Assembly: GCF_900109785.1 (NCBI RefSeq)
Contig: NZ_FOBH01000001.1
Span: forward strand, 62,001 to 126,000
Source of the DNA: Nitrosovibrio tenuis
Lineage (GTDB): Bacteria; Pseudomonadota; Gammaproteobacteria; Burkholderiales; Nitrosomonadaceae
Length of the DNA: 64,000 bases
Direction of reading: 5' to 3'
The notes beneath the pieces are model-generated. The model worked only from the letters and a program-made list of their open reading frames with translations, made no database searches and was not told where the DNA came from. Both the position numbers and the translations under genes were made by a program. Shown piece after piece: positions 37,233-54,553 of this stretch; the first letter of the stretch is position 1, and every line of letters begins with the position of its first letter.

Positions 37233-37310
37233 CCGCCACTTCGGAAGACGGCAAAGTGAGTGGACGGGTAAACTGCCCCCAACGGACTATAGACCGGTGC
37301 AAGTGAGTGT

Positions 37311-37355
37311 ACTAAAGTCCAATTTGATGCCGATGCTGATGCTGATACGATGCGG
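37311..37355 (+). promoter_or_regulatory. Activator-type promoter, EPS motif copy 1
   Basis: ACTAAAGTCCAAT (37311-37323) is followed after 22 nt by TACGAT (37346-37351) within GCTGATACGATGCGG. The same two elements with identical spacing occur at 54472-54517. If TACGAT is the -10 box, the 13-mer spans about -47 to -35, where an activator would touch RNA polymerase. No good -35 is present, which agrees with activator dependence. It would drive the XrtA EPS genes from 37674 on. The regulator is unknown; a LuxR/NarL-type protein is one guess. Confidence 0.6.
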
Positions 37356-37573
37356 TTCGCGATGAGAAAATAGCTCAACCAGCAACCTATATAAGCGATA
37401 AGTGCTTCAGACAGTTGCCTTACGTTTATGAGAAGAAGTTTACGAGAAGAATTTTTTGATTCTGAAGCTGGATTTTTGTTTGACTGCGGGATCGCGCATA
37501 CACTTGCAAATGAAATCTGCAGATGCTGCATCGGTGTCATGTGTTGCAAAAAACACAACAAATCAATAGTCTC

Positions 37574-37602
37574 TTGACAGAGAGGCTGACTTATAGCATC
37601 TT
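37574..37602 (+). promoter_or_regulatory. Possible second promoter for the EPS locus
   Basis: TTGACA (37574-37579) is a full -35 match. At 17 nt distance lies CATCTT, a poor -10 (three of six). It would shorten the leader to about 65 nt. Weak evidence. Confidence 0.25.
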
Positions 37603-37673
37603 TATTTTCCGATAAAACCAGCCCCCATCGCATAGATCGGACCGCCTCTTTCATATAGCAAAAAGGAAAATTA

Positions 37674-38300
37674 GTGAACGCTCTGCACTTGAGTATTTTG
37701 AAATGGCTGGCCTGTCTTGCCGTCATATTTCCTATCCTCTTCCTTGGCGGTTGCAAAACCTACCCAGCTCTTAGCCCTGACGAAAAGTATATCTCGCACG
37801 ATTATCTCATTGGCCCCGGGGACAACGTGGACGTTATTGTCTGGCGCAATCCGGAGGTTTCCATGGCGGTGCCCGTGCGTCCCGATGGAAAAATCACTAC
37901 ACCGCTGGTGGAGGATCTGCCCGCCAGTGGAAAAACCTCGACGCAGCTGGCGCGGGATATTGAACAAGCCTTATCCAAGTACATCCAGCAGCCGGTCGTC
38001 ACTGTCGTCGTGACCGAGTTTGTGGGGCCATACATGGAGCAAATACGGGTTATAGGCGAGGCTACCAAGCCTCAGGCACTCCCCTACCGGGAAGAAATGA
38101 CGTTGATGGATGTATTGATCGCGGTGGGCGGCATCACCGATTTTGCTGCAGGCAACAAGGCCAGGATCATTCGGAACGTGGATGGGAAACAGCAACAATT
38201 TAGTGTTAGATTGGATGATCTGATCAGGAATGGAGATATTTCCGCAAATGTACCCATGCGTCAAGGGGATGTTCTCGTCATTCCAGAAAGCTTTTTTTGA
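37674..38300 (+). CDS. XrtA-system EPS export lipoprotein (Wza-like)
   Basis: A 208-residue polysaccharide export protein of the PEP-CTERM/XrtA subtype, forming the periplasmic and outer-membrane exit for the EPS. Seen: signal peptide ending in the lipobox LGGC (Cys after about 25 residues), the Poly_export domain starting DYLIGPGDNVDVIVWRNPEV, VRPDGKITTPLVEDLPASG, and a SLBB domain with VIGEATKPQALPYREEMTL. Start is GTG at 37674 with AAGGA 7 nt upstream. First gene of the core EPS locus, with the chain-length gene 412 bp downstream. Confidence 0.93.
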   Translation: MNALHLSILKWLACLAVIFPILFLGGCKTYPALSPDEKYISHDYLIGPGDNVDVIVWRNPEVSMAVPVRPDGKITTPLVEDLPASGKTSTQLARDIEQALSKYIQQPVVTVVVTEFVGPYMEQIRVIGEATKPQALPYREEMTLMDVLIAVGGITDFAAGNKARIIRNVDGKQQQFSVRLDDLIRNGDISANVPMRQGDVLVIPESFF

Positions 38301-38712
38301 TTTACATTGGGATGACTGGCTTGGTTCAGTCTACTTCACAAAGCGCAGTATGTTTCTGGTCGCGCCATTAGAGATTCCGGCAGGGGCAGTCTTGCATGCG
38401 CAAAAAAAAGGCTATTCAAACATCATGCCCCTAATTTATCGGATTTCTACGGCAAGCCTGGGGCTTTTCAACAGATGGTCTGAGTACATTCAATCAGAAA
38501 AGCATCCGTATCTCATTCCCCGGATTACAAAACGCAAGCATCCGTTTCACCTTGCAGGCATGACGGTACGCAGGAGCGTGGATCAATCGGGATTAACCTC
38601 GTCTATCAGCTTTCCGCGAAAGTATTGCAAGAGCACACTTTCGGAAATTTTGACATTCCGGAGTAATGGCGACAGCTTAAGTGATTACCCCATCTATAAG
38701 GCCAATTGAAAT
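38301..38712 (+). other. Unusual 412-bp gap within the EPS operon
   Basis: Between the export and chain-length genes, usually adjacent in XrtA loci, lie 412 bp. One plus-strand frame is open from 38230 (inside the export gene) to 38709, with an internal ATG near 38350; it has no recognisable motif, a mixed basic/hydrophobic content, and no good ribosome site. I treat it as not proven. No hairpin with a T-run was found. Confidence 0.35.
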
Positions 38713-40236
38713 ATGGAGGAGCTGACAACCCAGCTGCTTGTTTACCTGAAAGGGGTGTGGAAATATCGCTGGATTGCGGTAAGTGCAGCCTGGATCGTCG
38801 CCATTGCAGGCTGGGTTATTGTTTACAAGCTGCCTGATGATTATCAGGCTTCCGCCAGAATTTATGTCGATACACAAAATGTATTGAAGCCATTAATGGC
38901 TGGTATGACAATTTCCCCTGATCTGCAACAGCAGGTTTCCATCATGAGCCGAACCTTGATCAGCCGCCCCAACGTGGAAAGAGTGGTGCGCATGGTTGAT
39001 CTGGATATCAAGGTCAAGGATGTAAAGGAGCAGGAAAAGCTGGTCAAGGAGCTTATGGGAAAAATCCAGCTGGGGGCGGCTGGTCGCGATAACCTTTTTA
39101 CCATTCACTATAACAATCAAAACCCTAAACTTGCTAAAGACATCGTTCAATCGTTATTAACCATTTTTGTCGAAGGGGGTCTGGGGGATAAGAAAGATTC
39201 TTCGTCCGCCATTCGCTTTATTGACGAGCAGATCCAGAGTTATGAGGAGAAGCTGATTGCCGGGGAAAATAATCTTAAGGCATTCAAACAAAAGAATATT
39301 GGGTTAATGCCTCAGCAAGGCAGCGATTATTACGCCCAGCTATCTCAGGCAGAGGAAGATCTCAACAAAACCAGGCTGGATTTACGTGAAGCCGAGCAGG
39401 CTCGCGATGCGATCAAAAGGCAAATTACCGGCGACGAGCCCGTACTCCTGGTGGATCAGAATGACTCGCCCTCATCTATAGTTAATGTAGAGATTGACTC
39501 TCGAATTGATGCATTGAACAAGAATCTGGACACTCTCAGACTAAACTATACGGAACTGCATCCTGATATTATCTCAACCAAGCGTTTGGTTGCCCAGCTT
39601 GAAGAGCGCAAGAAAGAAGAAGCTAAGCTAACAAAAAATAGCGCCGATCCCGGGAAAAATTATAGTCCCATGCTGCAACAGCTCAATGTGGCCCTGGCGG
39701 AAGCTGAAGCAGATGTCGCGTCCATGAAGGCTCGGGTGGAGGAATACACTTTCCGCTACAATCGGCTGAAATCCCTGAGCAACGCAGTGCCGCAAGTAGA
39801 GGCGGAGCTTACTCAACTCAATCGCGACTACCAGGTCAACAAAGCCAATTACGAAAAGCTTCTGGAACGCCGCGAATCGGCGAAGATATCTGGCGAACTG
39901 GGCTCCGCGACGGATTTGATGTCATTTAGGATTATCGATCCGCCAACAGTACCCGACATTCCGGTGGGACCCGATCGAGGCAAACTATATTCTCTGGTGT
40001 TTCTTGGGGCCATATTATTAGGGATCGGAATCGCGTTTGTTATCAGCCAGGTTCGGCCAACGTTTCATAGTCAAGCTAGCCTGCGGGAATTAACTGGAAG
40101 GCCGATATTGGGTTCAATTCCAATGATTTGGACCAGTAAGGAAAAAATTAAGCGCAGGAAACGGCTGTATGCGTTTGGCCTTTCATTACTATCCTTACTC
40201 GGCATATATGGCGCGTTGTTAGTAAAAATGGCCTAA
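38713..40236 (+). CDS. XrtA-system polysaccharide chain-length protein
   Basis: A 507-residue Wzz/polysaccharide co-polymerase of the PEP-CTERM subtype that sets EPS chain length together with the tyrosine kinase. Seen: N-terminal membrane helix (RWIAVSAAWIVAIAGWVIVY), the Wzz domain with YQASARIYVDTQNVLKP, a long periplasmic coiled coil (about 165-400; EEDLNKTRLDLREAEQARDA), the proline-containing RIIDPPTVPDIPVGPDR, and a second helix near 425-445. The C-terminal cytoplasmic part lacks a kinase domain, which is supplied by the next gene. AAGG lies 9 nt before the start. Confidence 0.94.
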   Translation: MEELTTQLLVYLKGVWKYRWIAVSAAWIVAIAGWVIVYKLPDDYQASARIYVDTQNVLKPLMAGMTISPDLQQQVSIMSRTLISRPNVERVVRMVDLDIKVKDVKEQEKLVKELMGKIQLGAAGRDNLFTIHYNNQNPKLAKDIVQSLLTIFVEGGLGDKKDSSSAIRFIDEQIQSYEEKLIAGENNLKAFKQKNIGLMPQQGSDYYAQLSQAEEDLNKTRLDLREAEQARDAIKRQITGDEPVLLVDQNDSPSSIVNVEIDSRIDALNKNLDTLRLNYTELHPDIISTKRLVAQLEERKKEEAKLTKNSADPGKNYSPMLQQLNVALAEAEADVASMKARVEEYTFRYNRLKSLSNAVPQVEAELTQLNRDYQVNKANYEKLLERRESAKISGELGSATDLMSFRIIDPPTVPDIPVGPDRGKLYSLVFLGAILLGIGIAFVISQVRPTFHSQASLRELTGRPILGSIPMIWTSKEKIKRRKRLYAFGLSLLSLLGIYGALLVKMA

Positions 40237-40524
40237 CCTGGAATTGAGAACCCACTTGCTTTGATCTCGGCAATTTTAGCCGCCCCAGGCAGGGTTCCAC
40301 CGGCTTCGCCCCTATAGGATATATCCTTGATGCATAAGCCGACTAAGCGTATGGATGAGTATTCGAAAAGTCATTTATCAGCCCCTACTCTTTTTATTCA
40401 ACGAAATCATGCAATTTACCGGCTTGGCTGCCGGGGTCGTTTTTGATTTCTGCAGAATCTGCATCTCGGCAAATTCCAACACTTCTGCATCATATCGTGC
40501 CTTGTAGATTTAATCGGAGAAAGC

Positions 40525-41469
40525 ATGAGTATCATTGAGAAGGCCGCAGCTAAACTCGAAAAAGAGGAGAGTGGTGGCGGGCCGTTCCTTTCGAGTAATT
40601 CCATCAGCTCCGGAGAGCTTTCCGATGAGATGGACATTCAGTCGAGGGCAAGCGAAGGTGTTCAGACTGGACCAGATTCGGTAAAAGACACAGTACCGGT
40701 TCCAGGAGTGGCGACGGCCCCGGCCTCTGCCCCGATGTCAAGACGGATTACTCTAAATCTGGCGAAGATGCGGCAGTATGGGATTGTCACGCCGGACCAG
40801 GGAAGAACACAGATTGCCGAGCAATTCCGTGTAATCAAACGGCCGCTACTTACGAATGCGTTTAACAGAGGACCAGGAATGATCAAGAATGGAAACCTGA
40901 TCATGGTCACGAGCGCTCTTGCGGGGGAAGGGAAAAGTTTTTGTACGGTCAATCTGGCCATGAGCATCGCCATGGAAATGGACCGCACTGTGTTGTTGGT
41001 GGATGCTGATGTGGCTCGCCCTACGGTACCCAAAATTCTTGGACTTGGGACAGAGAGCGGTTTAATGGATATCCTTATTGATGAAAAGCTCGATTTGGCG
41101 GACGTCCTGATTAAGACGAACATCGAAAAGCTCACGCTTCTTACGGCAGGGAGAAGACACTCGCATTCAACCGAGCTGTTAGCAAGCCAGAGCATGAATG
41201 ATTTGTTAAAAGAACTGGCGGAACGTTATGCCGATCGCGTCGTTATTTTTGATTCCCCGCCATTACTATTGACGAGCGAGGCGCGTGTACTGGCAACTCA
41301 GATGGGGCAAATTGTTCTGGTAGTGGAAGCTGAAACGACATCGCAACAGGCCGTCAAGGAAACCCTCCGGCAGATAGAATCATGCGATGTTGTAAATCTG
41401 ATCTATAACAAGGCCAGATCATTTTCTGGCGGAGAATATTACGGCTATTATTATCATGAGAGCGCCTGA
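40525..41469 (+). CDS. XrtA-associated tyrosine autokinase
   Basis: A 314-residue BY-kinase (CpsD/Wzc cytoplasmic type) of the XrtA system; autophosphorylation controls EPS polymerisation through the chain-length protein. Seen: an N-terminal linker of about 75 residues rich in S, E and P, then Walker A-type loop TSALAGEGKSFCTVNLAM, Walker A' VLLVDADVARPTVP, Walker B RVVIFDSPPLLLTSE, and a C-terminal tyrosine cluster EYYGYYY as the phosphorylation sites. GGAG precedes the ATG. Its end overlaps the next gene by 14 bp. Confidence 0.94.
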   Translation: MSIIEKAAAKLEKEESGGGPFLSSNSISSGELSDEMDIQSRASEGVQTGPDSVKDTVPVPGVATAPASAPMSRRITLNLAKMRQYGIVTPDQGRTQIAEQFRVIKRPLLTNAFNRGPGMIKNGNLIMVTSALAGEGKSFCTVNLAMSIAMEMDRTVLLVDADVARPTVPKILGLGTESGLMDILIDEKLDLADVLIKTNIEKLTLLTAGRRHSHSTELLASQSMNDLLKELAERYADRVVIFDSPPLLLTSEARVLATQMGQIVLVVEAETTSQQAVKETLRQIESCDVVNLIYNKARSFSGGEYYGYYYHESA

Positions 41470-43027
41470 AAACTGGCGCTCTCACAAGCATTTATTGCCG
41501 GCTGCTTACCTGGCTGCAACGGCAATGTTATTACTGTCTTCCTACTCGGATGCGGCTGAATGGAGGGTAATTCGTCGAACGAATTTGGTTGAAACATATA
41601 GCGATAACGTGCGATTGGGAGGGGGGGCCGGAACGGATGATTTCATCACTCAGACTAATCCGGGTATAACGGTAACCGGGATAGGAAACCGCTTCAATGC
41701 CAACATAGATTACACGTTGAACAATCTCATCTATGCCAACAACAGTAATTTTAACCGAATCAGGCACCAACTCAACGCCATTGGGACTGCCGAGCTGGTG
41801 AAAGATCTGTTTTTCGTGGATGGAAGCGCTTCAATCAGACAGCAGAATACTTCCTTGCTTGGGCCGCAGGGGATTGACAATGTCAATGTCACAGGCAACA
41901 GGTCCAATGTAAGCCTTTATAGTGTCAGTCCCTACCTGCGCCATCGTTTTCAGAACTTTGCATCAACCGAACTCCGTTATATCCACAATATAGTCAATTC
42001 AAGTGCAAACTCGCTTTTTAACAGCCAAGGGGATAGCTTCCTTCTTGGCCTCAACAGTGGTACCGCTTTCAACACGCTTGGGTGGGGCGTGAATTACAGC
42101 AATCAAATGATCCACTTCGCTACCGGCCGGTCAGTCGAACTGGAGCGTACGATCGGTAACCTTCGTTACCGGGTAACGCCGCAATTTGGCCTGACCGCAA
42201 CCGGTGGCTACGAAAGAAACAGTTTTATTTCGATCAGAGGGAGTCCCTCGGCACCTCTCTGGACGGTTGGTTTTGCATGGGCACCCACTGAAAGAACGAA
42301 CATTGCTGTGAACGGCGGACAACGGTTCTTCGGCAACACCTATTCAGCCCTGGCCAGTCATCGTACCCGCTTGACCGCCTGGGATGTCAGTTATAGCCAA
42401 GATATCACAACCTTCAACCAGCAGGCTGGCCTTGGCCTTGGTTCATCAGCCGGCTTCGGGGGATCGCTGAACCAACTCCTCGCGGCGCAAAATCCCACTC
42501 TCAGCCCCGACGCAATCCAGCAAGCTAGCGGCGCAATTCTTGGCCTCGGAGCGACCGGTTCTTTTTTTGGTCCTACCAACTTTTTAACCAACCGCCTCTT
42601 CCTGCAGAAGATGCTACAGGCTTCTGTCGCGATGAATGGAGCAAGAAATACTGTTGTGCTCAGAGTATTCGATATGACGCGCCAGGCATTCTCTCCAGAC
42701 TCGGTCGACGCCGGTTTGGTTGGGGCGGGAGATTTGGCACTGCTTAACCACACGAGGCAGCGCGGTGCAAATGCATTATGGAGCTACCGGCTTAGCCAAT
42801 TGACGAGTGCCAACGCCAATTTCGGGTACACGAAATTCAGCTTTCTGGGTGCCGGCAGAGTGGATGACTTTTGGCTGATCACGCTCGGCTTGTCCAGGCA
42901 ATTCTCGCAAATCCGGCCTAATCTGAATGGAACGCTTCAGGTGCGGCATCAGGAACGAAATTCCAATCAGCCCGGGGCAGACTACCGGGAGAACGCCATT
43001 ATTGCGTCCCTGAACATGAGTTTTTAA
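41456..43027 (+). CDS. XrtA-associated outer-membrane beta-barrel protein
   Basis: A 523-residue protein of the TIGR03016-type PEP-CTERM-associated outer-membrane family. Seen: signal peptide (PAAYLAATAMLLLSSYSDAA), then many alternating-residue beta strands rich in N, G, T, S, Y and R (YSDNVRLGGGAGTDDF, GGYERNSFISIRG), and a C-terminal strand ending in aromatic F (ENAIIASLNMSF), the usual barrel-assembly signal. It is thought to take part in EPS passage or anchoring; the exact role is unknown. Starts inside the end of the kinase gene, so the two are translationally coupled. Confidence 0.88.
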   Translation: MRAPENWRSHKHLLPAAYLAATAMLLLSSYSDAAEWRVIRRTNLVETYSDNVRLGGGAGTDDFITQTNPGITVTGIGNRFNANIDYTLNNLIYANNSNFNRIRHQLNAIGTAELVKDLFFVDGSASIRQQNTSLLGPQGIDNVNVTGNRSNVSLYSVSPYLRHRFQNFASTELRYIHNIVNSSANSLFNSQGDSFLLGLNSGTAFNTLGWGVNYSNQMIHFATGRSVELERTIGNLRYRVTPQFGLTATGGYERNSFISIRGSPSAPLWTVGFAWAPTERTNIAVNGGQRFFGNTYSALASHRTRLTAWDVSYSQDITTFNQQAGLGLGSSAGFGGSLNQLLAAQNPTLSPDAIQQASGAILGLGATGSFFGPTNFLTNRLFLQKMLQASVAMNGARNTVVLRVFDMTRQAFSPDSVDAGLVGAGDLALLNHTRQRGANALWSYRLSQLTSANANFGYTKFSFLGAGRVDDFWLITLGLSRQFSQIRPNLNGTLQVRHQERNSNQPGADYRENAIIASLNMSF

Positions 43028-43056
43028 AGCGGAAGTTTCTTGGCGAAAATAATCGA

Positions 43057-44070
43057 ATGTACTCATCATTCTATGGCTTCAGAGTCAAACCGTTTCAATT
43101 AAAACCCGATCCGAATTTTTTCTTCGGTAGCAAGGGTCATAAACGCGCCATGGCCTATCTCGAGTATGGACTCGCCCAAGGAGAGGGTTTTATTGTCATT
43201 ACCGGCGAAGTGGGTGCGGGCAAAACGACACTGGTTCGGCATCTTTTTCGCAAGCTGGATTCCGAGAAGATTCTCCCTGCGCAGGTTGTAAATACCGATC
43301 TGGATTCCGGCGACACGTTGAGAATGGTGTCTGCGGCGTTTGGGTTGCCCTATGAAAATCTAAGCAAGGCTTCGTTGTTAATCGGGCTGGAACAATTCTT
43401 TCGTCAGTGCGATCAGCAGGGAAAACGCTCCCTCCTGGTAGTCGATGAAGCGCAGAATCTCTCTCCTCGGACCGTAGAAGAGTTGAGAATGCTTTCCAAT
43501 TTCCAAACGGATGATAGGCCCCTCTTACAAACTTTTTTGCTTGGCCAGCCGGAGTTCAGGGAAACTCTAATGAGCCGCGACATGCAGCAATTGCGCCAGA
43601 GAGTGATTGCAACGTATCACCTCGGGCCCATGGACTTGGCCGAAACACAATCGTACATTGAACATCGGTTAACGACGGCAGGCTGGCAGGGAAATCCGTC
43701 ATTTGATGAGGATGCCTTTGGCGCCATTTATGATTACACAGCAGGTATTCCCCGAAAAATAAATGGGCTTTGCGATCGCCTCCTGCTGATGGGTTACCTG
43801 GAAAAATTGCACAGTTTCAGTAGCGCGGAAGTTAACGAAGTTATTCGTGATATTCAGCAGGAATTCGATGTGCCGGCTGCCACAGTCCGCATGCCAGGCG
43901 ACAGTCCTGGCACACCTGTGTCGGAGAGCAGTGAATCTCTACTCAAGATGGAAAATACGGATAACCGGCTTGCCAGGCTGGAGGAATCGGTTGTCTCGTT
44001 GCTGGAGTTGCTCAAGCAAATACTCTCCCTTTCGGATCCGGGCAAAAAACTTAAAAAGGACAAGATTTGA
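43057..44070 (+). CDS. XrtA-associated ExeA-like ATPase
   Basis: A 337-residue AAA ATPase of the TIGR03015-type PEP-CTERM family, related to ExeA/GspA of type II secretion. Seen: the family start YGFRVKPFQLKPDPNFFFGS, Walker A GEVGAGKT (residues 50-57), Walker B SLLVVDEAQNLS, and YTAGIPRKINGLCDRLLLMG, with a C-terminal tail of about 60 variable residues. It probably powers or gates a step of EPS export; details are not known. It lies between the outer-membrane protein and deacetylase genes, its normal place. Confidence 0.93.
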   Translation: MYSSFYGFRVKPFQLKPDPNFFFGSKGHKRAMAYLEYGLAQGEGFIVITGEVGAGKTTLVRHLFRKLDSEKILPAQVVNTDLDSGDTLRMVSAAFGLPYENLSKASLLIGLEQFFRQCDQQGKRSLLVVDEAQNLSPRTVEELRMLSNFQTDDRPLLQTFLLGQPEFRETLMSRDMQQLRQRVIATYHLGPMDLAETQSYIEHRLTTAGWQGNPSFDEDAFGAIYDYTAGIPRKINGLCDRLLLMGYLEKLHSFSSAEVNEVIRDIQQEFDVPAATVRMPGDSPGTPVSESSESLLKMENTDNRLARLEESVVSLLELLKQILSLSDPGKKLKKDKI

Positions 44071-44101
44071 TGTGGTCTACGCGCCGGACGCATTCCTCCC
44101 G

Positions 44102-44941
44102 ATGACCCAGACGTCAATACGTAACGCTATGACGATCGATGTGGAGGACTATTTCCAGGTTTCCGCATTCGCTCCGTATATCGCTCGGGAACGGTGGGAA
44201 TCCATACCTTGCCGAGTAGAGTCCAATGTTGACCGCATCCTTGCTTTATTGGATGAAGAGGGCACAAAAGCGACGTTTTTCACCTTGGGATGGATCGCCG
44301 ACCGGTATCCTGCAATGGTAAGCCGCATCGTTTCAAATGGTCACGAGCTTGCAAGCCATGGATGGGCTCACTACCGTGTTTCCGATCAAAATCCGGATGA
44401 ATTTCGTGAAGATATCCTCCGAAGTAAAGCCATTTTGGAAGATATCGGTGGCCAGGCGGTTTTAGGGTACCGTGCACCCAGTTTTTCCATAGGCCGGCAT
44501 AACCAATGGGCACTGGATCTGCTTGAAGAGGCGGGTTACCGTTACAGCTCGAGCATTTACCCAGTTCGACACGATCATTATGGGATTCCCGATGCCCCCC
44601 GTTTTGCATATTATCCCCGCGGCAGTGGGTTGCTGGAATTGCCCATCACCACAATGCGCCTGTTCAGGCAAAATATTCCCGCCGGAGGCGGCGGCTATTT
44701 CAGGCTTTGGCCCTATCCCGTTTCAAAATGGTTTTTGAAAAGGCTGAATCAACTGGAGCAGCGCTCTGCGATTTTCTACTTCCATCCTTGGGAAATAGAT
44801 CATCAACAGCCGCGTCAAAAAGGTATCAGTATGAAAACGCGCTTCCGCCATTATTACAATCTCCACCGCATGGAAAAGCGGATCAAAGCACTGACCCGTG
44901 ACTTCAACTGGAATCGAATGGATCGGGTTTTCCTTGATTAG
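44102..44941 (+). CDS. XrtA-system polysaccharide deacetylase (DUF3473)
   Basis: A 279-residue NodB-type deacetylase with the DUF3473 C-terminal part, the subtype tied to XrtA loci. Seen: NAMTIDVEDYFQVSAFAPYI (catalytic Asp), TKATFFTLGWIADRYP, ASHGWAHYRVSDQ (H-x4-H type), LGYRAPSFSIGRHNQWALD, and the DUF3473 end with FYFHPWEID and RFRHYYNLHRMEKRI. I chose ATG 44102 because the conserved block begins just after it; the frame is open further upstream inside the ATPase gene. Confidence 0.93.
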   Translation: MTQTSIRNAMTIDVEDYFQVSAFAPYIARERWESIPCRVESNVDRILALLDEEGTKATFFTLGWIADRYPAMVSRIVSNGHELASHGWAHYRVSDQNPDEFREDILRSKAILEDIGGQAVLGYRAPSFSIGRHNQWALDLLEEAGYRYSSSIYPVRHDHYGIPDAPRFAYYPRGSGLLELPITTMRLFRQNIPAGGGGYFRLWPYPVSKWFLKRLNQLEQRSAIFYFHPWEIDHQQPRQKGISMKTRFRHYYNLHRMEKRIKALTRDFNWNRMDRVFLD

Positions 44942-46031: not shown

Positions 46032-46033
46032 CA

Positions 46034-47293
46034 ATGGAGGAAATTCTTTATCTCGTCCACCGCTTTCCTTATCCTCCGAACAAGGGAGATAAAATACGCT
46101 CTTATCATCTACTCAGGCATTTGAGTCAACGCTATCGCATTCATCTCGGTACCTTTATTGATGACGACGGGGACTGGAAGTATCGCGATAAAGTGAAAGG
46201 CCTCTGCGGCGAGACCTGTTTTATCGATCTCTCCCCAAAGGTAGCGCGTGTACGCAGCCTCCGCGGTTTTTTTTCCGGGCGGCCTCTGACCTTGCCCTAT
46301 TATTGGGATAAGGGATTGCAAACTTGGGTAAACAGTATTCTTGAAACGAGACCGGTCAGAAATATTCTGGTTTTTTCCTCGGCCATGGCCCAATACGTCA
46401 GCCATGCGAGAAACGCACACCGCATAGTCGATTTCGTCGATATTGATTCCGATAAATGGCGGCAATATGCAAACGCCACACGCTGGCCGATGAACCGGGT
46501 TTATCGGCGCGAGTCGAAATTGCTTCTTGGCTACGAACGGCAGGTTGCTGTAGATTTTGATTGCGCCACATTCGTTTCCCAGGCGGAAGCCGACCTATTC
46601 GGAAAACTCGTGCCAGAAGCTGCGAAGAAGGTTACGTACTTCAACAATGGCGTCGATGCCGACTATTTCTCACCGCATCGGCCGTACTCAAATCCCTACA
46701 CGGCCGGTTTACCTACATTGGTCTTCACTGGCGCGATGGACTATTGGGCCAATATTGACGCCGTGGAATGGTTTGCGCGCCGGGTTTTTTCCGAGGTTCG
46801 CGCGCAATTACCCATGGTTGAGTTTCACATAGTGGGTGCGCGTCCCACCGCAGCAGTAATCGCTTTAGCCAGTCTGCCCGGTGTAACGGTAACCGGATCG
46901 GTACCGGATGTCCGGCCTTTTCTCGCCCATGCCTCCCTGGTCGTAGTTCCGCTGCGTATCGCCCGCGGTATACAAAACAAAGTGCTTGAAGCAATGGCGA
47001 TGGAAAAAATTGCAGTGATCTCCCCTCAGGCGATGGAAGGCATCCACGCGTGCCCCGGCCGGGAACTGGTCGTAGCAAGCGATGGTAGTGAGTTCGCCTC
47101 CCACATTCTGGCGGTGCTGGCCAACGGATCGGATTCGTCCATGGGTCATGCTGCAAGGAATCGTGTGCTTGAATGCTACAGTTGGGAAAAAAGCCTGGGG
47201 GGCATCGACAGGCTTCTTGCCCGGACACGAACAATTTATTCTGATGAAGAGGTCCGGCCGGCCGCAAAGTTGCTTCAGATTGGCGGGAGATGA
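46034..47293 (+). CDS. XrtA-system glycosyltransferase (TIGR03087 type)
   Basis: A 419-residue GT4-like (GT-B fold) sugar transferase of the PEP-CTERM/EpsH1 family. Seen: MEEILYLVHRFPYPPNKGDK and RSYHLLRHLSQRY at the start, and in the C-terminal domain VFTGAMDYWANIDAVEWF, GSVPDVRPFLAHASLVVVPL, and RGIQNKVLEAMAMEK with the donor-binding glutamate. The ATG at 46034 lies 2 bp after the FemAB stop. It ends in an ATGA overlap with xrtA, so the two are translated together. Confidence 0.92.
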   Translation: MEEILYLVHRFPYPPNKGDKIRSYHLLRHLSQRYRIHLGTFIDDDGDWKYRDKVKGLCGETCFIDLSPKVARVRSLRGFFSGRPLTLPYYWDKGLQTWVNSILETRPVRNILVFSSAMAQYVSHARNAHRIVDFVDIDSDKWRQYANATRWPMNRVYRRESKLLLGYERQVAVDFDCATFVSQAEADLFGKLVPEAAKKVTYFNNGVDADYFSPHRPYSNPYTAGLPTLVFTGAMDYWANIDAVEWFARRVFSEVRAQLPMVEFHIVGARPTAAVIALASLPGVTVTGSVPDVRPFLAHASLVVVPLRIARGIQNKVLEAMAMEKIAVISPQAMEGIHACPGRELVVASDGSEFASHILAVLANGSDSSMGHAARNRVLECYSWEKSLGGIDRLLARTRTIYSDEEVRPAAKLLQIGGR

Positions 47294-48927
47294 TTGGCAT
47301 GGATATTCAAACGCCGCAAAAATTAACGCATGACCCCGTGATAACGCTGGATCAACACGGTTTTAAAATAGCTGTCGCCGTAACGCTCGTTACAATTGTT
47401 GCCATTCTCGCGAGCTACCACAAAACGACCTGGTCCATGGTATCCATCTGGGCACGATCCGATACATTTGCTCATGGCTTTCTGATTTTTCCTTTCAGCG
47501 CTTATTTGATATGGACGCAACGCAAGCGTCTCAGCGCCCTTAGTCTTCAACCGAACCTGTTTGGGCTGGCTGCGCTTGCCACCATCGGTTTTAGCTGGCT
47601 GCTTGCAATACTCGCCAGCGTTCAGGTGTTCGAGCAGATTTTCCTTGTGGCGATGATCCCTGCCGCAGTTTGGGCAATTCTTGGAAACCGCATGGTATGG
47701 GCACTGGCTTTCCCGTTAGCTTATCTCTTGCTTGCCGTACCGTTTGGGGAGGCGCTTATTTCTCCCCTGATAGACTTTACCGCCGACTTTACCGTGGCGG
47801 CATTACAATTGACGGGCATCCCGGTTTATCGTGAAGGCAGCTTTTTTACCATCCCGAGCGGGAACTGGTCCGTTGTGGAAGCCTGCAGCGGCTTGCGCTA
47901 CCTGATCGCATCTTTTACGCTGGGTACTCTTTACGCTTATCTGACCTACCAAAGCCTGAAGCGCCGCCTGATCTTCATTGCATTGTCGGTGATAGTGCCC
48001 TTGGTCGCCAACGGCATCCGCGCATACATGATTGTGATGACGGGTCATTTGAGCGATATGCGTCTCGCCGTGGGAATTGATCATCTGATCTACGGTTGGG
48101 TTTTTTTTGGCTTCGTGATGCTTTTATTATTCTGGATCGGATCCTTCTGGCGCGAGGACGAGCCAAAATCTGCCGGTCCGATGACCCACTTCGAGCCTGA
48201 ATCGGACCCGACGCCGGGCGGCGTTCCACTCAAGAGCCTGATCTACGCCGCCACCGCGGTCGTTGCTGTTGCACTTATCTGGCCGGCTTATGCCGCTTAC
48301 CTCGAAAACATGCTTTCCCGCAGCGATACAATGCCTAAGCTCGAGATTGCCGGTCTCTCGCAGAAATGGGAAATCAGCCCGAGGGGGGGTTCTGAATGGA
48401 GGCCACAATACATTGGCGCAACTACCCAGCTCCTGCAACACTATAACGATAGCAAACGGCCGGAGAGAGCAGTGGATCTATACATTACCTATTATCGAAA
48501 TCAACAGCAGGGGAAAGAGCTGGTGAATTCGGAAAATGTGCTTACGTTGGAAAATGAGTCGGAAAATGAATCGCAAAGTAATCCCGAAACTCGATCCCAT
48601 TGGCGGAACGTCAAGCACGACACGCGTACTGTATCCTTTGGCTCCGGCGAAGGGGTAATTAATCAGAACCTCATACAATCATCCTCATCCAAGCTGCTGG
48701 TATGGAGGTGGTATTGGCTTGGTGAAGAAAAAACCGCCAATCCCTATCTGGCCAAACTGATTCTCGCCAGAAACAAACTTATGGGCAGGGCTGATGATGG
48801 GGCAGAGATTATTGTTGCGGCATCTTATGACGACGTATCCGATGAGGCGGCTCCGATACTTGAAAGTTTTTTCGCCGATATGATGCCATCCATAGAAACA
48901 TCTCTCCGGAATGCGGGCAATCGCTAG
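47290..48927 (+). CDS. xrtA: Exosortase A fused to EpsI domain
   Basis: A 545-residue membrane transpeptidase-like enzyme that recognises the PEP-CTERM sorting signal and cleaves it, tied to EPS production. Seen: eight or more transmembrane segments in the first 300 residues; the catalytic Cys199 in VEACSGLRYLIAS, Arg244 in NGIRAYMIV, and His265 in DHLIYGWVFFG, the accepted triad. From about residue 305 a second part has one membrane helix (SLIYAATAVVAVALIWPAY) and an EpsI/DUF3485 periplasmic domain to the end. EpsI is encoded separately in some hosts; the fused form is common in betaproteobacteria. No PEP-CTERM substrate was found in the window. Confidence 0.96.
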   Translation: MIGMDIQTPQKLTHDPVITLDQHGFKIAVAVTLVTIVAILASYHKTTWSMVSIWARSDTFAHGFLIFPFSAYLIWTQRKRLSALSLQPNLFGLAALATIGFSWLLAILASVQVFEQIFLVAMIPAAVWAILGNRMVWALAFPLAYLLLAVPFGEALISPLIDFTADFTVAALQLTGIPVYREGSFFTIPSGNWSVVEACSGLRYLIASFTLGTLYAYLTYQSLKRRLIFIALSVIVPLVANGIRAYMIVMTGHLSDMRLAVGIDHLIYGWVFFGFVMLLLFWIGSFWREDEPKSAGPMTHFEPESDPTPGGVPLKSLIYAATAVVAVALIWPAYAAYLENMLSRSDTMPKLEIAGLSQKWEISPRGGSEWRPQYIGATTQLLQHYNDSKRPERAVDLYITYYRNQQQGKELVNSENVLTLENESENESQSNPETRSHWRNVKHDTRTVSFGSGEGVINQNLIQSSSSKLLVWRWYWLGEEKTANPYLAKLILARNKLMGRADDGAEIIVAASYDDVSDEAAPILESFFADMMPSIETSLRNAGNR

Positions 48928-48930
48928 TAA

Positions 48931-50121
48931 ATGGCAGGTCAAACAAGATCCGCGGAAGTCCTTGAACAGCCTCCCCTTGTTGTTCATGTGATTTACCATT
49001 TAGGTGTAGGCGGCCTGGAAAACGGACTCATCAATCTGATCAACCATATTCCGACGGAGCGTTACCGCCATGCCATCGTTTGCCTCAAGGGATATTCCGA
49101 CTTTCGCAGGAGGATCATCAGGCATGATGTGGAAATTATAGCGTTGAACAAGCGTGAGGGAAACGACCTCAATCTTTACGTCGCTCTTTTTAAGGCATTC
49201 AGGCGGCTGAGGCCAGATATCGTGCACACCCGCAACCTTGGCACGATGGAGGGCCAGGTCATCGCCGCCATTACGGGCGCACGGGCACGCGTGCACGGGG
49301 AACACGGTCGCGACATTTTTGACTTGCATGGGAAAAACCGTAAATACAACTTACTGCGCAAGGCGATTTGCCCTTTAGTGACCGATTTCATTGCCGTTAG
49401 CAAAGATCTGGAAAACTGGCTCGTCAATACTATTGGTGCAACACCCGTCCGCGTCAACCAGATCTACAACGGCGTCGACAGTACACGTTTTTCCCCGCGC
49501 AACCACCATATTTTTGCAGCCGGGCGCATTGGAGGTATACCGGAAGGATTTATTGCTGACAATACATTTGTTATTGGAAGTGTTGGAAGAATGGCGGATG
49601 TAAAAAATTTTCCCTGTTTGGTTCAGGCTTTTCTGATGCTGTTGAAAGAAGAACCTTCAGCTCGCCAACGACTTCGGCTCCTGATAATCGGGGATGGGAA
49701 TTCACGTGGGAAGTGCGTCAATATGTTACGTGAAGCGGGAGCGGAAGCCCTTGGCTGGTTTCCAGGTGAGCGCGCAGACATTCCGGAGCTGATGCGGGCT
49801 ATGGATTTGTTCGTGCTTCCCTCGCTCGGCGAAGGCATTTCCAACACCATTCTCGAAGCCATGTCCACTGGTTTGCCAGTCATAGCGACCAGGGTTGGCG
49901 GAAATGTGGAACTGATAAAAGAAGGAGTTACTGGAACACTTATTCCGCCAGACGCGCCAGCGGCCATGATGACAGCCATATTGAGCTATTATAAGCATCC
50001 CGAGCTGATCGCCAGCCATGGGTCGGCAGCGCGAGAACAGATTCAGGCAAGCTTCAGCATCGAGGCCATGACGAAGGGCTATCTCCGGGTCTATGACAAG
50101 GTGTTATGCAGACAAAGTTGA
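48931..50121 (+). CDS. XrtA-system glycosyltransferase (TIGR03088 type)
   Basis: A 396-residue GT4 family glycosyltransferase. Seen: VVHVIYHLGVGGLENGLINL at the start, HTRNLGTMEGQVIAAITGA, GEHGRDIFDLHGKNRKY, and the C-terminal GSVGRMADVKNF and DLFVLPSLGEGISNTILEAM with the conserved E-x7-E. Family members sit next to xrtA and are presumed to build the EPS repeat unit on the cytoplasmic face. It follows xrtA by 3 bp. Confidence 0.93.
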   Translation: MAGQTRSAEVLEQPPLVVHVIYHLGVGGLENGLINLINHIPTERYRHAIVCLKGYSDFRRRIIRHDVEIIALNKREGNDLNLYVALFKAFRRLRPDIVHTRNLGTMEGQVIAAITGARARVHGEHGRDIFDLHGKNRKYNLLRKAICPLVTDFIAVSKDLENWLVNTIGATPVRVNQIYNGVDSTRFSPRNHHIFAAGRIGGIPEGFIADNTFVIGSVGRMADVKNFPCLVQAFLMLLKEEPSARQRLRLLIIGDGNSRGKCVNMLREAGAEALGWFPGERADIPELMRAMDLFVLPSLGEGISNTILEAMSTGLPVIATRVGGNVELIKEGVTGTLIPPDAPAAMMTAILSYYKHPELIASHGSAAREQIQASFSIEAMTKGYLRVYDKVLCRQS

Positions 50122-50138
50122 GATAAAGGAAAACCAGC

Positions 50139-52073
50139 ATGTGTGGAATCGTCGGCCTATTTGATACGCGCGGCAAGAGGGAGTTCGACCGTCGGCTCCT
50201 GGAGCGCATGAATCAGATTCAGGCACATCGCGGGCCCGATGAAGGTGAGTTGTACACCGAGCCGGGTGTCGGCCTGGGTCATCGCCGCCTCTCGATCATG
50301 GATGTATCCAGCGGCCAACAACCGCTTTTCAACGAGGACGGCAGCGTCGTCGTCATCTTCAATGGGGAAATCTATAATTTCCAGGATCTTGCCAGGGAGC
50401 TTGCCGCCGCCGGCCATATTTTCCGTACCCATTGTGATACCGAGGTCATCGTGCATGCCTGGGAAGAGTGGGGTGAGAATTGCGTAGATCGCTTCAGAGG
50501 CATGTTTGCATTCGGTTTATGGGACCGTAATCGTGAGCTGTTGTTTCTTGCCCGGGATCGGCTTGGCATCAAACCCCTGTACTACAGCCTGCTCAAAGAT
50601 GGCACATTCATTTTTGGTTCCGAGCTTAAGGCTTTACTAGCTCATCCGGATTTTCTGCGGGAGCTCGACCCGTATGCGATCGAAGATTATTTTGGTTACG
50701 GTTATATACCTGAGCCAAAGACGATATTTCGGCAGGCTTTCAAACTGCCCCCAGCTCATACCCTGAAACTCCACTGCGGGCAAAATGTGCCGCAGCTGCG
50801 CCAATACTGGGATATACCATTTGTTCCGCACGAGCCGCTCAGTATGGCCGAGGCGCAGGAAGAGCTGACTATACGGCTGCGCGAATCGGTCAAGATTCAC
50901 CTTATGACCGAGGTGCCCCTTGGAGCTTTCCTGTCTGGTGGTGTAGATTCAAGCGCGGTGGTTGCGATGATGGCCAACCTCATGAAGGAACCGGTCAATA
51001 CATGCTCCATCTCTTTCGGTGACCCTGCTTTCAACGAATCGCAATATGCGCAAAGTGTGGCTGATCGCTACCATACTAGCCATAATGTAGAGCAGGTGAA
51101 CCATGACGACTTTGACCTGATAGACAAGCTGGCTTCGATTTATGATGAGCCTTTTGCTGACAGCTCGGCCATGCCCACCTATCGGGTTTGCGAGCTGGCG
51201 AGGAAACGCGTAACCGTTGCATTGTCAGGAGATGGCGGGGACGAGAACCTCGCCGGCTACCGCCGTTATCGCTGGCATCTCTATGAAGATCGGATGAGGT
51301 CCGCGCTACCGTTCGGGCTTTGCAAGCCAATGTTTGGGTTGTTGGGCAGTCTGTATCCCAAGGCTGACTGGGCGCCCAAGTTTCTGAGGGCAAAATCCAC
51401 CTTCGAGGCACTCGCCCGAGATTCGGTGGAGGGTTATTTTCATGGCGTATCCATCGTTAAAGACAGGATGCGCCAAAGCCTGTTCAGCCCTTCGTTCAAT
51501 CGCAGCCTTCAGGGTTATCAAGCGGTGGAGGTGTTGCGTATGCATGCTGAAAAATGCCCTGTACAGGACGCCCTGTCGCGGGTGCAATACCTGGACATGA
51601 AAACCTACCTTGTCGGAGATATCCTTACCAAAGTTGACCGAGCGAGCATGGCGCACGCTTTGGAGGTGCGGGTGCCACTGCTCGATCATAAGCTGGTCGA
51701 ATGGATATCCGGCCTGCCGGCTTCGTTCAAGCTTCACGGACATGAAGGCAAATACGTATTCAAGAAAGCTCTGGAACCTCATCTTTCCAATGAGATCCTG
51801 TACCGCGATAAGATGGGTTTTGCCGTTCCGCTGGCAAGCTGGTTTCGTGGTCCGTTGCGCGAGAGATTGAACAATGCGTTAATGGGTCCGGTTTTATCGG
51901 ATACCGGATTATTCAACCGGACCTATATAAGCCAGATGCTCGACCAGCACCAGTCGGGGCGGCGCGACCATAGCGCTCCGCTTTGGACACTGCTAATGTT
52001 CGAATCTTTTTTGCGCAACGTGCTCGATATGGAGCAGCCACGTTCACGTAAGGAAGATCGCAAGGTGGCATAA
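50139..52073 (+). CDS. XrtA-system asparagine-synthase-like amidotransferase
   Basis: A 644-residue class II glutamine amidotransferase of the AsnB type, PEP-CTERM subgroup (TIGR03108). Seen: Cys2 (MCGIVGLFDTRGK), RGPDEG, GHRRLSI, FNGEIYNF and the synthetase domain with the PP-loop FLSGGVDSSAVVAM, SGDGGDENLAGY and KVDRASMAHALEVRVPLLDH. It probably amidates a uronic or similar acid of the EPS; this is inferred from location. A short open frame and the second deacetylase gene follow. Confidence 0.94.
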   Translation: MCGIVGLFDTRGKREFDRRLLERMNQIQAHRGPDEGELYTEPGVGLGHRRLSIMDVSSGQQPLFNEDGSVVVIFNGEIYNFQDLARELAAAGHIFRTHCDTEVIVHAWEEWGENCVDRFRGMFAFGLWDRNRELLFLARDRLGIKPLYYSLLKDGTFIFGSELKALLAHPDFLRELDPYAIEDYFGYGYIPEPKTIFRQAFKLPPAHTLKLHCGQNVPQLRQYWDIPFVPHEPLSMAEAQEELTIRLRESVKIHLMTEVPLGAFLSGGVDSSAVVAMMANLMKEPVNTCSISFGDPAFNESQYAQSVADRYHTSHNVEQVNHDDFDLIDKLASIYDEPFADSSAMPTYRVCELARKRVTVALSGDGGDENLAGYRRYRWHLYEDRMRSALPFGLCKPMFGLLGSLYPKADWAPKFLRAKSTFEALARDSVEGYFHGVSIVKDRMRQSLFSPSFNRSLQGYQAVEVLRMHAEKCPVQDALSRVQYLDMKTYLVGDILTKVDRASMAHALEVRVPLLDHKLVEWISGLPASFKLHGHEGKYVFKKALEPHLSNEILYRDKMGFAVPLASWFRGPLRERLNNALMGPVLSDTGLFNRTYISQMLDQHQSGRRDHSAPLWTLLMFESFLRNVLDMEQPRSRKEDRKVA

Positions 52074-52076
52074 CCC

Positions 52077-52217
52077 ATGCCCAATAACGGAATGCTGGAA
52101 CTGTGCTGTGCCGGCGGAACGGACGAGCCCAACCTCAAATATTTCTCCCTGTACGGACGATCCGATCATCGCCAGGCCGCCGGCCGCATTCTTCCTCTGC
52201 CTCAATATCGGTTTTAG
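52077..52217 (+). CDS. Small open frame, 46 residues
   Basis: A short frame lies between the amidotransferase and deacetylase genes, 3 bp after one and 12 bp before the other. It begins with ATG at 52077, has AGGTGG 8 nt before it (a good ribosome site inside the end of the upstream gene), and ends at TAG 52215-52217. It encodes MPNNGMLELCCAGG and then a polar, arginine-containing part ending in LPQYRF. A Cys-Cys pair is seen. I do not recognise it; it could be a small protein, or a remnant that keeps coupled translation going across the gap. Confidence 0.4.
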   Translation: MPNNGMLELCCAGGTDEPNLKYFSLYGRSDHRQAAGRILPLPQYRF

Positions 52218-52229
52218 AGGTTCAATAAA

Positions 52230-53192
52230 ATGCTGGACGTATTTTTTACCGTTGACGTAGAGGTCTGGTGCGATGGATGGGATGGCATTGACGCCAAGTT
52301 TCCAAGCGCGTTTCAACGGTATGTCTATGGTCCTACGTCGAGAGGCAACTATGGTTTACCGTATCAGTTATATCAATTGCGGGAACATGGCCTAACAGGA
52401 GTGTTTTTCGTCGAATCGCTCTTCTCGACCCGGTTTGGCCCGGACCCGTTGGCGGAAATCATCGGTCTCATTCAAAAGCATGGGCATGAAATACAACTTC
52501 ACCTGCATACCGAGTGGGTGGATGAGTCTCGTCAGCCCTTGCTCGACAGCATCGCAGGCAAGAAGCAGTTTCTGCGCTACTTTTCCTTAGACGAGCAAAC
52601 CATCCTGATTCAGGCAGGAGCAAAGTTAATCGAGTTGGCCGGAGCTCCCATTGTAAAAGCATTCCGCGCTGGAAGCTTTGGCTTCAACCGGGATACGCTG
52701 CACGCGCTCGCCAGGAATCGTATTACTTTCGACAGCAGCTACAACGCCAGCATGTTTGGACGTGATAGCGGAGTCTCCCCTGGCGTCATGCTTGTAGAGC
52801 CTGCTGAGTGCGAAGATGTCTATGAGTATCCCATGACGGTCTTCCGTAGCAGCGCTCGCTCATTGCGTCATGTACAGTTGACCGCCTGTTCTTATGGGGA
52901 AATGGAAGGTTTGCTGTGGCAGGCACTGGAATCCGGACGTAAGGCATTCGTTATTCTTTCTCATAATTTTGAATTGCTGAATGGCGGCATGAACCGGCCG
53001 GATGATATCGTGGTAACGCGCTTCCGCAAACTCTGCTCTTTTCTTGATCGCCATCGGGATTGTTTTCATGTCCGGGGGTTTAATGGATTAGTCCCCGATC
53101 TAGCATGTTCACAGCCAGCTCCCCTGGTCTCACCGGTGTGGAAGACCGGGCTGAGAATGCTGGAGCAGGGTATACGGCGAGGCTTTAATTGA
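52230..53192 (+). CDS. Polysaccharide deacetylase family protein
   Basis: A 320-residue NodB-like protein, the third deacetylase in the window. Seen: FFTVDVEVWCDGWDGI (catalytic Asp equivalent), GLTGVFFVESLFSTRFGP, HGHEIQLHLHTEWVDESR (metal histidines), KAFRAGSFGFNRDTL and ILSHNFELLNG. It resembles deacetylases of surface-glycan loci rather than the DUF3473 type. The stop overlaps the TTG start of the next gene by 3 bp, so the two are probably coupled. Confidence 0.85.
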   Translation: MLDVFFTVDVEVWCDGWDGIDAKFPSAFQRYVYGPTSRGNYGLPYQLYQLREHGLTGVFFVESLFSTRFGPDPLAEIIGLIQKHGHEIQLHLHTEWVDESRQPLLDSIAGKKQFLRYFSLDEQTILIQAGAKLIELAGAPIVKAFRAGSFGFNRDTLHALARNRITFDSSYNASMFGRDSGVSPGVMLVEPAECEDVYEYPMTVFRSSARSLRHVQLTACSYGEMEGLLWQALESGRKAFVILSHNFELLNGGMNRPDDIVVTRFRKLCSFLDRHRDCFHVRGFNGLVPDLACSQPAPLVSPVWKTGLRMLEQGIRRGFN

Positions 53193-54130
53193 GCCAGGCT
53201 TGGCAATATCAGAAGGTGCCTGTAAAGCTTCAGCTTGGGGATACTGCACTGCTTGCGCCTGAACTCTGGTTACAAGTACGCGAGGTCGGACTCGATGACG
53301 ACGATCTGCCTGTCTCAGAGCTGATACCCCCAGCGGATCCTCTTCAGCTTGGCAGTCAGGGATTTCTGATACGGTCGCTTCGCATTACCGGCAAGCAGCC
53401 GGTGTTTGAAAAGCGGGGCGATTATCTTTGCTACGTATCATCCCGATACATGCGCTACTACATCGATATGCGAACGTCATTTTCCGAATACACGGCCAAA
53501 TTTTCATCCAAGACGCGCTCGACGCTCAATCGCAAGATCAGAAAATATAAAGATTATTGTGGCGGTGAGATTTCATGGAAGGTGTACAAGGATGTTGGCG
53601 AGATGTCCGAATTCTTTCGATTAGCTCGCGCTGTTTCCGAAATAACCTATCAGGAAAAGTTGCTTGATGCGGGTCTGCCCGATTCCGAGAATTTTTGTTT
53701 GGAAATGGAACAGCTCGCCCGGCAGGGCCGTGTACGCGGGTTCATTCTCTTCCATGCGAGCCGGCCTGTATCTTACCTCTATTGTCCCGTCACCAATGGC
53801 GTTGTCATTTACGCGTTTCTTGGATATGACCCCAGCTACATGAATTTTTCCGTAGGTACAATTTTGCAATGGATTGCTCTGGAACATCTATTTGGTGAAA
53901 AGTTATTTCGTTTTTTCGATTTTACCGAAGGACAGTCCGACCATAAAAAGCTTTTCGCTACGGATAATATTCAGTGCGCCAATGTTTTTTTTCTATGCAG
54001 CAACCTGCGCAATATGTTCTTGGTGCATACCCAGAGAACGATTAACAAGTTGAGTAAAGTAACAGGCGATATGCTGGATCAGTACGGTATAAAGCCGGCG
54101 GTAAGAAGGCTAATGCGGTTTGGGAAATGA
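53189..54130 (+). CDS. GNAT/FemAB-like acyltransferase
   Basis: A 313-residue GNAT-superfamily protein (acetyltransferase_6/FemAB type). Seen: SSKTRSTLNRKIRKYKDY, which matches the basic region of this type, LARAVSEITYQEKLLDAGL, FHASRPVSYLYCP, DPSYMNFSVGTILQWIAL, and FRFFDFTEGQSDHKKLFATD. It starts at TTG 53189 with GAGG 6 nt upstream, overlapping the deacetylase stop. Substrate is unknown; together with the deacetylase it could re-acylate freed amino groups of the glycan (inference). Confidence 0.82.
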   Translation: MSQAWQYQKVPVKLQLGDTALLAPELWLQVREVGLDDDDLPVSELIPPADPLQLGSQGFLIRSLRITGKQPVFEKRGDYLCYVSSRYMRYYIDMRTSFSEYTAKFSSKTRSTLNRKIRKYKDYCGGEISWKVYKDVGEMSEFFRLARAVSEITYQEKLLDAGLPDSENFCLEMEQLARQGRVRGFILFHASRPVSYLYCPVTNGVVIYAFLGYDPSYMNFSVGTILQWIALEHLFGEKLFRFFDFTEGQSDHKKLFATDNIQCANVFFLCSNLRNMFLVHTQRTINKLSKVTGDMLDQYGIKPAVRRLMRFGK

Positions 54131-54237
54131 TTATTCCTGGGTGCGCCTTCAGTCACGCTGTCGTGCTCGAAGGTGCCGGAGGAGATATCGACAAGATTCC
54201 GTTCATTCCGAGCGCCAGGAAACTCGGCATCAGGTGA
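54127..54237 (+). CDS. Small open frame, 36 residues
   Basis: An ATG at 54127 overlaps the TGA of the FemAB-like gene (ATGA) and opens a frame of 36 residues to TGA 54235-54237. The reading starts MIIPGCAFSHAVVLEGAGG and goes on DIDKIPFIPSARKLGIR. It could be a coupled small protein or the start of a gene lost by frameshift. No family recognised. Confidence 0.3.
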   Translation: MIIPGCAFSHAVVLEGAGGDIDKIPFIPSARKLGIR

Positions 54238-54553
54238 TATGCCCGGTTTTTAGGGTGAATAACAATGGCACGGTGGCATTTCAATAAAACTGGGCGTCAG
54301 CTGAAGCATTTCTCTTACAGATCTTCTGGATCCAGCAATGCCAGCTCCAATTGTCTGCTTCTTTCCAAGATCCGGCTCATCCACAAAGAACATCTCATCG
54401 GCGAAGCTATAGAGTGCCCGAGCTGCAACTCCGCTTATGTCGGAAAGTTATTCAAAAGGTTTTCTTACTGTACTAAAGTCCAATGTATGGTGTTTACAGA
54501 AGCTGCTACGATGCCGGTTTATTCGATATGAGTAAGTAGACCATAGTAAACCC
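54238..54553 (+). other. Gap holding the second EPS-type promoter
   Basis: 316 bp. A frame from 54265 to 54531 encodes 88 residues with a Cys pair (ECPSCNSAYVG), but it runs across the promoter at 54472-54517 and has no ribosome site, so I do not call it a gene. The promoter is the main content. Confidence 0.4.
54472..54517 (+). promoter_or_regulatory. Activator-type promoter, EPS motif copy 2
   Basis: ACTAAAGTCCAAT (54472-54484), 22 nt, then TACGAT (54507-54512) inside GCTGCTACGATGCCGG. The layout equals that at 37311-37355, while the 17 nt after the first element are unrelated, so the match is not just a duplicated block. The start point would be near 54519, 35 nt before the acetyltransferase gene at 54554. 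Confidence 0.6.

Follow-up and report, generated by a model that had tools for sequence, protein, structure and literature searches.

A recurring promoter box of Nitrosospira precedes exopolysaccharide, PEP-CTERM and some anti-phage genes, with a NarL-type protein as candidate regulator

Two promoters with the same layout occur in a stretch of 64,000 nucleotides (nt) from the Nitrosovibrio tenuis genome (contig NZ_FOBH01000001.1, positions 62,001 to 126,000 of the forward strand; hereafter the window, with positions counted from its first letter). Comparison with related genomes indicates that both are part of a recurring DNA switch, of which soil ammonia-oxidising bacteria have some 15 copies in each genome. 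Each copy probably serves a dimeric activator of the NarL/FixJ type as its operator, positioned immediately 5' of a weak promoter of the sigma70 type; the activator that would bind it and activate the regulon is probably an orphan NarL-type protein, NarLb (the names NarLb and NarLa, for its partner, were coined in this analysis). Sequence evidence gives good support to this family of sites, to their geometry and to exopolysaccharide (EPS) and PEP-CTERM genes as their targets.

Both copies lie on the forward strand and share the layout described in the initial annotation (Table 1). The pattern ACTAAAGTCCAAT-N22-TACGAT occurs at 37311-37351 and 54472-54512 and has no other match in the 3.1-Mb genome; the 13-mers (37311-37323 and 54472-54484) are exact copies, GCTG(A/C)TACGATGC is common to both, and the remainder of the spacer is unrelated. 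When the distance between the 13-mer and TACGAT was allowed to range from 20 to 24 nt, the whole genome again gave two matches versus none for the reversed control. Taking TACGAT as -12 to -7, the 13-mer occupies -47 to -35, which agrees with the position first proposed, and conservation extends beyond the 13-mer to an imperfect dyad of 14 bp, TGTACT-NN-AGTCCA, with AT after it. A third copy in the window had not been noticed, and none was found here, as a search with up to three mismatches gave 11 matches versus 12.4 expected (chance level) and GTAC-N4-GT[AC]C recovered the two known copies only. The statement that a -35 consensus is absent holds for copy 2, where none was seen by eye, and fails for copy 1, which has a weak -35-like hexamer. 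Similarly, of the two EPS transcription units thought to lie behind the boxes, the one behind copy 1 is an XrtA EPS cluster whose first called gene starts 365 nt from the box, while copy 2 precedes a GNAT acetyltransferase gene for which an EPS role is unsupported.

The boxes in the window belong to a much larger family of sites. The exact 13-mer was found in 15 of 61 genomes of the same genus, family and order, and all 15 are from the window's own genus (hereafter Nitrosospira). The degenerate core GTACYNNRGTCCAAT has 353 sites in 23/23 genomes of this genus (7-27 each, 15 in the window's own genome) versus nine for the reversed control, and a single site versus two for the control in the 38 other genomes. 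With TACYNNRGTCCAAT-N22-TANNAT and no mismatch, 53 sites were found in 19/23 genus genomes (control 0). Over the genomes of named species, GTGTACYNMAGTCCAATN{19,24}TANRAT matched 47 stretches, 43 of them from Nitrosospira or Nitrosovibrio; three of the other four came from two Gallionellaceae genomes, and the last, a single match in Legionella longbeachae (L151), was taken as chance and left out of the target, anatomy and spacer analyses. This distribution points to a Nitrosospira-type ammonia oxidiser as the source of the window. The core has eight and three sites in these two Gallionellaceae genomes (control 0), and a perfect-dyad pattern gave 111 matches in 158 Gallionellaceae genomes versus eight for its reversed control. 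That the full exact pattern occurs only twice in the genome could suggest a functionless chance match or a recent duplication, but this has a negligible probability given the excess of core sites over control sites and the fact that other Nitrosospira carry the box in front of their orthologs of the export gene.

To describe the anatomy of the promoter we used 96 Nitrosospira sites, in which the fixed letters of the core read 100% by construction, as the sites were collected through the core pattern. TANNNT follows the box at 21 nt in 53 sites and at 22 nt in 26, with at most five sites at any other spacer of 10-39 nt. With starts placed accordingly, the dyad centre would fall at -42.5 and -43.5 for spacers of 21 and 22 nt, a position that would fit a class II activator with its operator near -41.5 and a poor -35; TTG occurs anywhere in the scanned stretch in 33/96 sites. 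GTAC is preceded by T in 88% of sites, the two bases 5' of that position are each G in ~70%, the three positions upstream of GG carry at most 0.11 bits, and 3' of the core an A or T is followed by G (76%). The Nitrosospira dyad, TGTACY-NN-RGTCCA (14 bp), is imperfect and that of Gallionellaceae, TGTACY-NN-RGTACA, is perfect; in the latter family TANNNT stands at 21 or 22 nt in 42/74 sites, a count in which perfect dyads can be included on both strands. Boxes of both families have inverted half-sites around a 2-nt centre, as in NarL/FixJ-type operators, which follow a 7-2-7 rule.

The narrow spacing to the -10-like element, together with the strong conservation, would also be expected if an alternative sigma factor used the box as its -35 region, with no activator involved. 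We consider this quite unlikely, as the site is a dyad whose centre lies ~8 nt farther upstream than a -35 element normally would, the -10 is sigma70-like, and in 23/96 Nitrosospira sites a TTG at 16-17 nt from the -10 overlaps the final base of the box. A dispersed repeat, or a mobile fragment carrying a promoter that was copied around the genome, is an even less probable origin of the box: copies are many and 11/145 distinct sites share a GCTCAGC-like spacer, but flanks and most spacers vary among sites, orthologous targets retain the box as the spacer diverges (cas3 in L115, L138 and L143), and only 1/55 sites falls inside a called gene.

To identify the genes behind the boxes, sites were taken from the window's own genome, two single-contig relatives (G006 and G021) and 46 stretches from named species, giving 100 distinct sites (four in Gallionellaceae); for 72 of them the next gene predicted by a home-made gene caller is on the same strand and no more than 1 kb away. 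The window's XrtA export gene is one of a group of 10 orthologs behind a box. In its own genome the 15 core sites precede the EPS operon, EpsB2-PrsK-PrsR, the GNAT gene of copy 2, four PEP-CTERM genes (L112, L117, L120 and L123), Hachiman HamA (L113), a type I-E cas3 (L115) and six others. Among 80 downstream proteins, the NCBIfam tally gave the XrtA export protein nine times, PEP-CTERM families up to seven, EpsB_2 four and Cas3 four, versus a control of genes before boxes with QueG (10, preceding the EPS operon) and NarL-type proteins (four, partly NarLb before EpsB2). A PEP-CTERM regular expression matched 13/70 genes downstream of boxes versus 6/92 upstream, and on visual inspection 12 downstream matches, including L134 with its VPLPA-type end, and one upstream match were judged real. 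In Gallionellaceae G584 and G585, chosen for having the most perfect-dyad matches (35 of 36 sites read, one G585 stretch left out), 22 of the 30 perfect-dyad sites with a same-strand gene within 700 nt precede genes encoding PEP-CTERM proteins. Relatives were therefore found to carry, rather than to lack, copies before EPS and XrtA genes, and the EPS regulon first proposed survives as one part of a target set that is far wider than EPS.

The initial annotation had supposed a dedicated LuxR/NarL-type activator coded elsewhere, and NarLb, the best candidate for that role, is the likely regulator of the box. NarLb is an orphan NarL-type protein of 230 amino acids (aa) encoded at C21:17295-17984 of the same genome, in the order HtrA-like protease, NarLa (190 aa, receiver-like), NarLb, box, EpsB2, PrsK, PrsR; a Gallionellaceae locus (L148) keeps the order protease, NarLa, NarLb, box, EpsB2, PrsK at 50-67% identity. 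Its GerE helix-turn-helix (HTH) domain is clear (PF00196, 2.6e-17, 62.6 bits, cut-off 23.5) and its receiver match is weak (PF00072, 27.5 bits, below the cut-off of 30.2); in the receiver alignment, by eye, an LLLD stretch is common and the N-terminal acidic pair looks absent. NarLb is present in 23/23 genus genomes, in 7/399 genomes of the order at E<=1e-30 and in 19/158 Gallionellaceae genomes at 1e-25. A box lies between NarLb and EpsB2 in all 21 genus genomes in which the region is visible (the contig ends first in two more), and before EpsB2 also in two Gallionellaceae genomes. Within 1.5 kb downstream of NarLb a box was found at 13/24 Gallionellaceae loci, and at 11 of these 13 the dyad is perfect or near-perfect, with a NarLa gene behind the box in eight of the 11.

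The box might instead be the operator of another LuxR-type regulator, either of the EpsA family (TIGR03020, two in the genome) or an SdiA-like protein. EpsA, which has a LuxR-type HTH, is by name an XrtB/PEP-CTERM-associated LuxR regulator, a name that links it to EPS and PEP-CTERM loci; the two members in the window's genome score 304 and 225 bits, and one adjoins a gene with PEP-CTERM matches (L125). However, the 11 to 14 kb stretches around the EpsA-family and SdiA-like genes of this genome (L124-L126) contain no box, with the spread of EpsA in relatives not searched, and the second EpsA-family protein (L124:7165-8010) has a truncated HTH match that covers residues 237-279 and positions 3-45 of the 57 in the profile. 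We consider this alternative improbable, and NarLb is favoured over EpsA mainly because of its link to the box in two families, in which the site shifts from a perfect to an imperfect dyad. NarLb, encoded beside NarLa just upstream of EpsB2-PrsK-PrsR, would bind the dyad as a dimer, with binding expected at TGTACYNNRGTCCAAT sites, and would contact RNA polymerase from about -43. It may in this way turn on EPS synthesis, PEP-CTERM surface proteins and the PrsK/PrsR system, and in Nitrosospira also some CRISPR-Cas and other anti-phage systems.

A perfect dyad was found in 15/19 Gallionellaceae genomes with NarLb versus 16/139 without it (Fisher p 2e-9), and in 13/17 with NarLb when the two genomes found by the box were removed (p 3e-8), although these values exaggerate independence because the genomes are related. 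This caveat is one of several points that weigh against the proposed operator and its regulator. No box occurs within 1.5 kb of any of five NarLb homologs of genus g3, whose recognition helix looks the same as in Nitrosospira, so that a helix difference was rejected as the cause of site presence and the helix alone does not explain where the site occurs. All four second NarLb copies in Nitrosospira lack a box within the fetched stretch, as do 11/24 Gallionellaceae NarLb loci, some of which are cut short. In G585 the perfect dyad was matched 19 times and no NarLb was found at 1e-25, and G515, with seven near-identical matches, is another exception to the pairing of dyad and NarLb. Searches with up to three mismatches over the 13-mer core plus -10 were close to the control in most genomes (nine versus eight in the window's own), and with up to two mismatches to TACTTAAGTCCAAT this genome gave 19 versus 13 for the control; the exact degenerate core stands apart from reversed controls, while loose mismatch patterns do not. 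Finally, for 28/100 sites the gene caller did not give a gene on the same strand as the next one within 1 kb, partly because it misses genes.

In comparison with known NarL/FixJ-type systems, NarLb shares the GerE HTH, with VraR, NarL and VpsT as best PDB sequence matches and DevR lower, and the box shares the dyad with its 2-nt centre and a site near -43. NarLb differs in its weak receiver match and in being an orphan gene beside a receiver-like partner. The half-site of the box differs from the NarL heptamer, and the DosR/DevR box, GGGACT-NN-AGTCCC, shares the half-site AGTCC and the 2-nt centre but has different outer bases. For the Streptomyces regulator OsdR, the portion of PMC5069765 drawn on here gives the consensus AGGGCCGATCGGCCCT and not the DevR letters. 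The W-I-R-R of NarLb aligns with the W-L-T-R of VpsT, the cyclic di-GMP-bound biofilm activator of Vibrio cholerae, the third motif residue being T in VpsT and R in NarLb. The VpsT-like cyclic di-GMP receiver motif is W[FLM][TS]R. The W..R pair is kept in 56/56 NarLb rows (WxRR 55, WVPR 1) and in 43/45 NarLa rows (WVTR 26), a few rows being the same gene twice. VpsT activates a polysaccharide operon, and R134A disrupts its cyclic di-GMP binding, as stated in part of PMC3359988; R134 would be the arginine of the aligned motif, and cyclic di-GMP as the signal for NarLb is a lead only.

Control of PEP-CTERM genes by PrsK/PrsR and sigma-54 is known or predicted in the sections drawn on from PMC1569441, PMC9850573 and, for DAP-chip in Desulfovibrio, PMC3333781. 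The targets of the PrsK/PrsR sigma-54 system in the text used from PMC1569441 are of the same class as those of the box (PEP-CTERM genes and XrtA EPS), and the box precedes EpsB2-PrsK-PrsR itself. PrsR sites combine a -24/-12 sigma-54 element (GG/GC) with a distant enhancer, as far as that text goes; the element conserved downstream of the box is a -10-like TANNNT at 21-22 nt. The same part of this paper (Haft 2006) describes the sigma-54/PrsR site before PEP-CTERM genes and expects more regulators and DNA motifs still to be discovered. A literature search of open-licence PubMed Central papers found no description of the box among titles and abstract openings. As a second PEP-CTERM regulatory motif beside the sigma-54/PrsR site the box is a strong candidate, and it comes with a candidate regulator.

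Unexpectedly, about ten kinds of anti-phage system stand behind boxes. PADLOC matches include GajA, bSEFIR, ZorA/B/C, DruE, a type III restriction enzyme with methyltransferase, SIR2 with HerA, dCTP deaminase, Cas1f, HamA, Cas3e and a weak LmuB. Of the 70 distinct first genes, 11 matched in single scans (L113, L115, L142, L149, L154, L162, L167, L168, L217, L219 and L224, with L217 being the weak LmuB match at 1.6e-14), and L138 and L143 were added through their grouping with L115 and the Cas3 tally. The resulting 13/70 compares with at most 4/91 genes before a box (Fisher p 0.0045; 0.015 when the three cas3 orthologs count as one). Five further downstream genes (two at L145, and L158, L213 and L118) gave no PADLOC match, and the remaining downstream genes were seen through PADLOC tallies of the best 25 families. 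These family tallies, 246 downstream versus four in the upstream control, exaggerate the contrast because the downstream set of 80 proteins (68/70 first genes and 12/24 second or third genes, versus 91/92 single genes in the control) includes 12 added genes picked from mostly defence-like operons. The defence branch is a putative one, an association with modest statistics. We tentatively suggest, as a reading that is more doubtful than NarLb regulation itself, that the NarL-type pair, possibly sensing cyclic di-GMP and not phosphorylation, turns on in Nitrosospira both the matrix (EPS and exosortase-sorted surface proteins) and some of the anti-phage systems (CRISPR I-E and I-F, Gabija, Zorya, Druantia, Hachiman, SIR2-HerA, SEFIR, dCTP deaminase and type III restriction), which would make surface life and phage defence one programme. 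With the same box in front of many unrelated defence systems, ammonia oxidisers would offer a direct test of whether matrix and phage defence are controlled together.

Table 1 Features of the two box promoters in the window
Feature	Positions	Strand	Remarks
Box copy 1, TGTACTAAAGTCCAAT	37308..37323	+	Imperfect dyad centred at -43.5 from inferred start
Weak -35-like hexamer TTGATG (4/6)	37324..37329	+	16 nt before TACGAT of copy 1
-10-like TACGAT, copy 1	37346..37351	+	
XrtA polysaccharide export protein (Poly_export/SLBB), first called gene after copy 1	37674..38300	+	Pfam; ortholog group, TIGR03027
XrtA EPS genes	38713..52073	+	Presumed co-transcribed
Box copy 2, TGTACTAAAGTCCAAT	54469..54484	+	
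-10-like TACGAT, copy 2	54507..54512	+	
GNAT acetyltransferase, gene after copy 2	54554..55111	+	ATG 84 nt from G of GTAC

The XrtA EPS genes of Table 1 encode a chain length determinant, a tyrosine autokinase, an outer-membrane protein, an ATPase, a deacetylase, FemAB, two glycosyltransferases, exosortase A and an amidotransferase. The start codon of the export gene is that assigned by the gene caller, and the GNAT gene was missed by the home-made caller. A leader of roughly 300 nt (37352-37673) separates the copy-1 promoter from the called export-gene start, with a similar length in several other Nitrosospira. Rfam gave no matches in the whole window at the gathering threshold, so that no known RNA family accounts for this long leader.

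Several other features of the sites were observed. Tandem boxes 15 bp apart occur at L014, L100, L236 and L247, and seven near-identical perfect-dyad matches in genome G515, all on one strand, are perhaps a repeat. The 11 sites with a GCTCAGC-like spacer are L062/L235, L068, L070, L131, L142, L145, L155, L162, L168, L172 and L224, and four of them precede defence genes (Gabija, Druantia, SIR2-HerA and dCTP deaminase). At L209, L170, L161, L173, L130, L163 and other sites a good -10 is present and the next called gene is not on the same strand, which may point to missed genes or small RNAs. Small conserved proteins stand behind boxes in several genomes, with lengths of ~92 aa (L122, L217 and L238), ~127 aa (L114, L222, L157 and L159) and 87-148 aa (L116 and L239).

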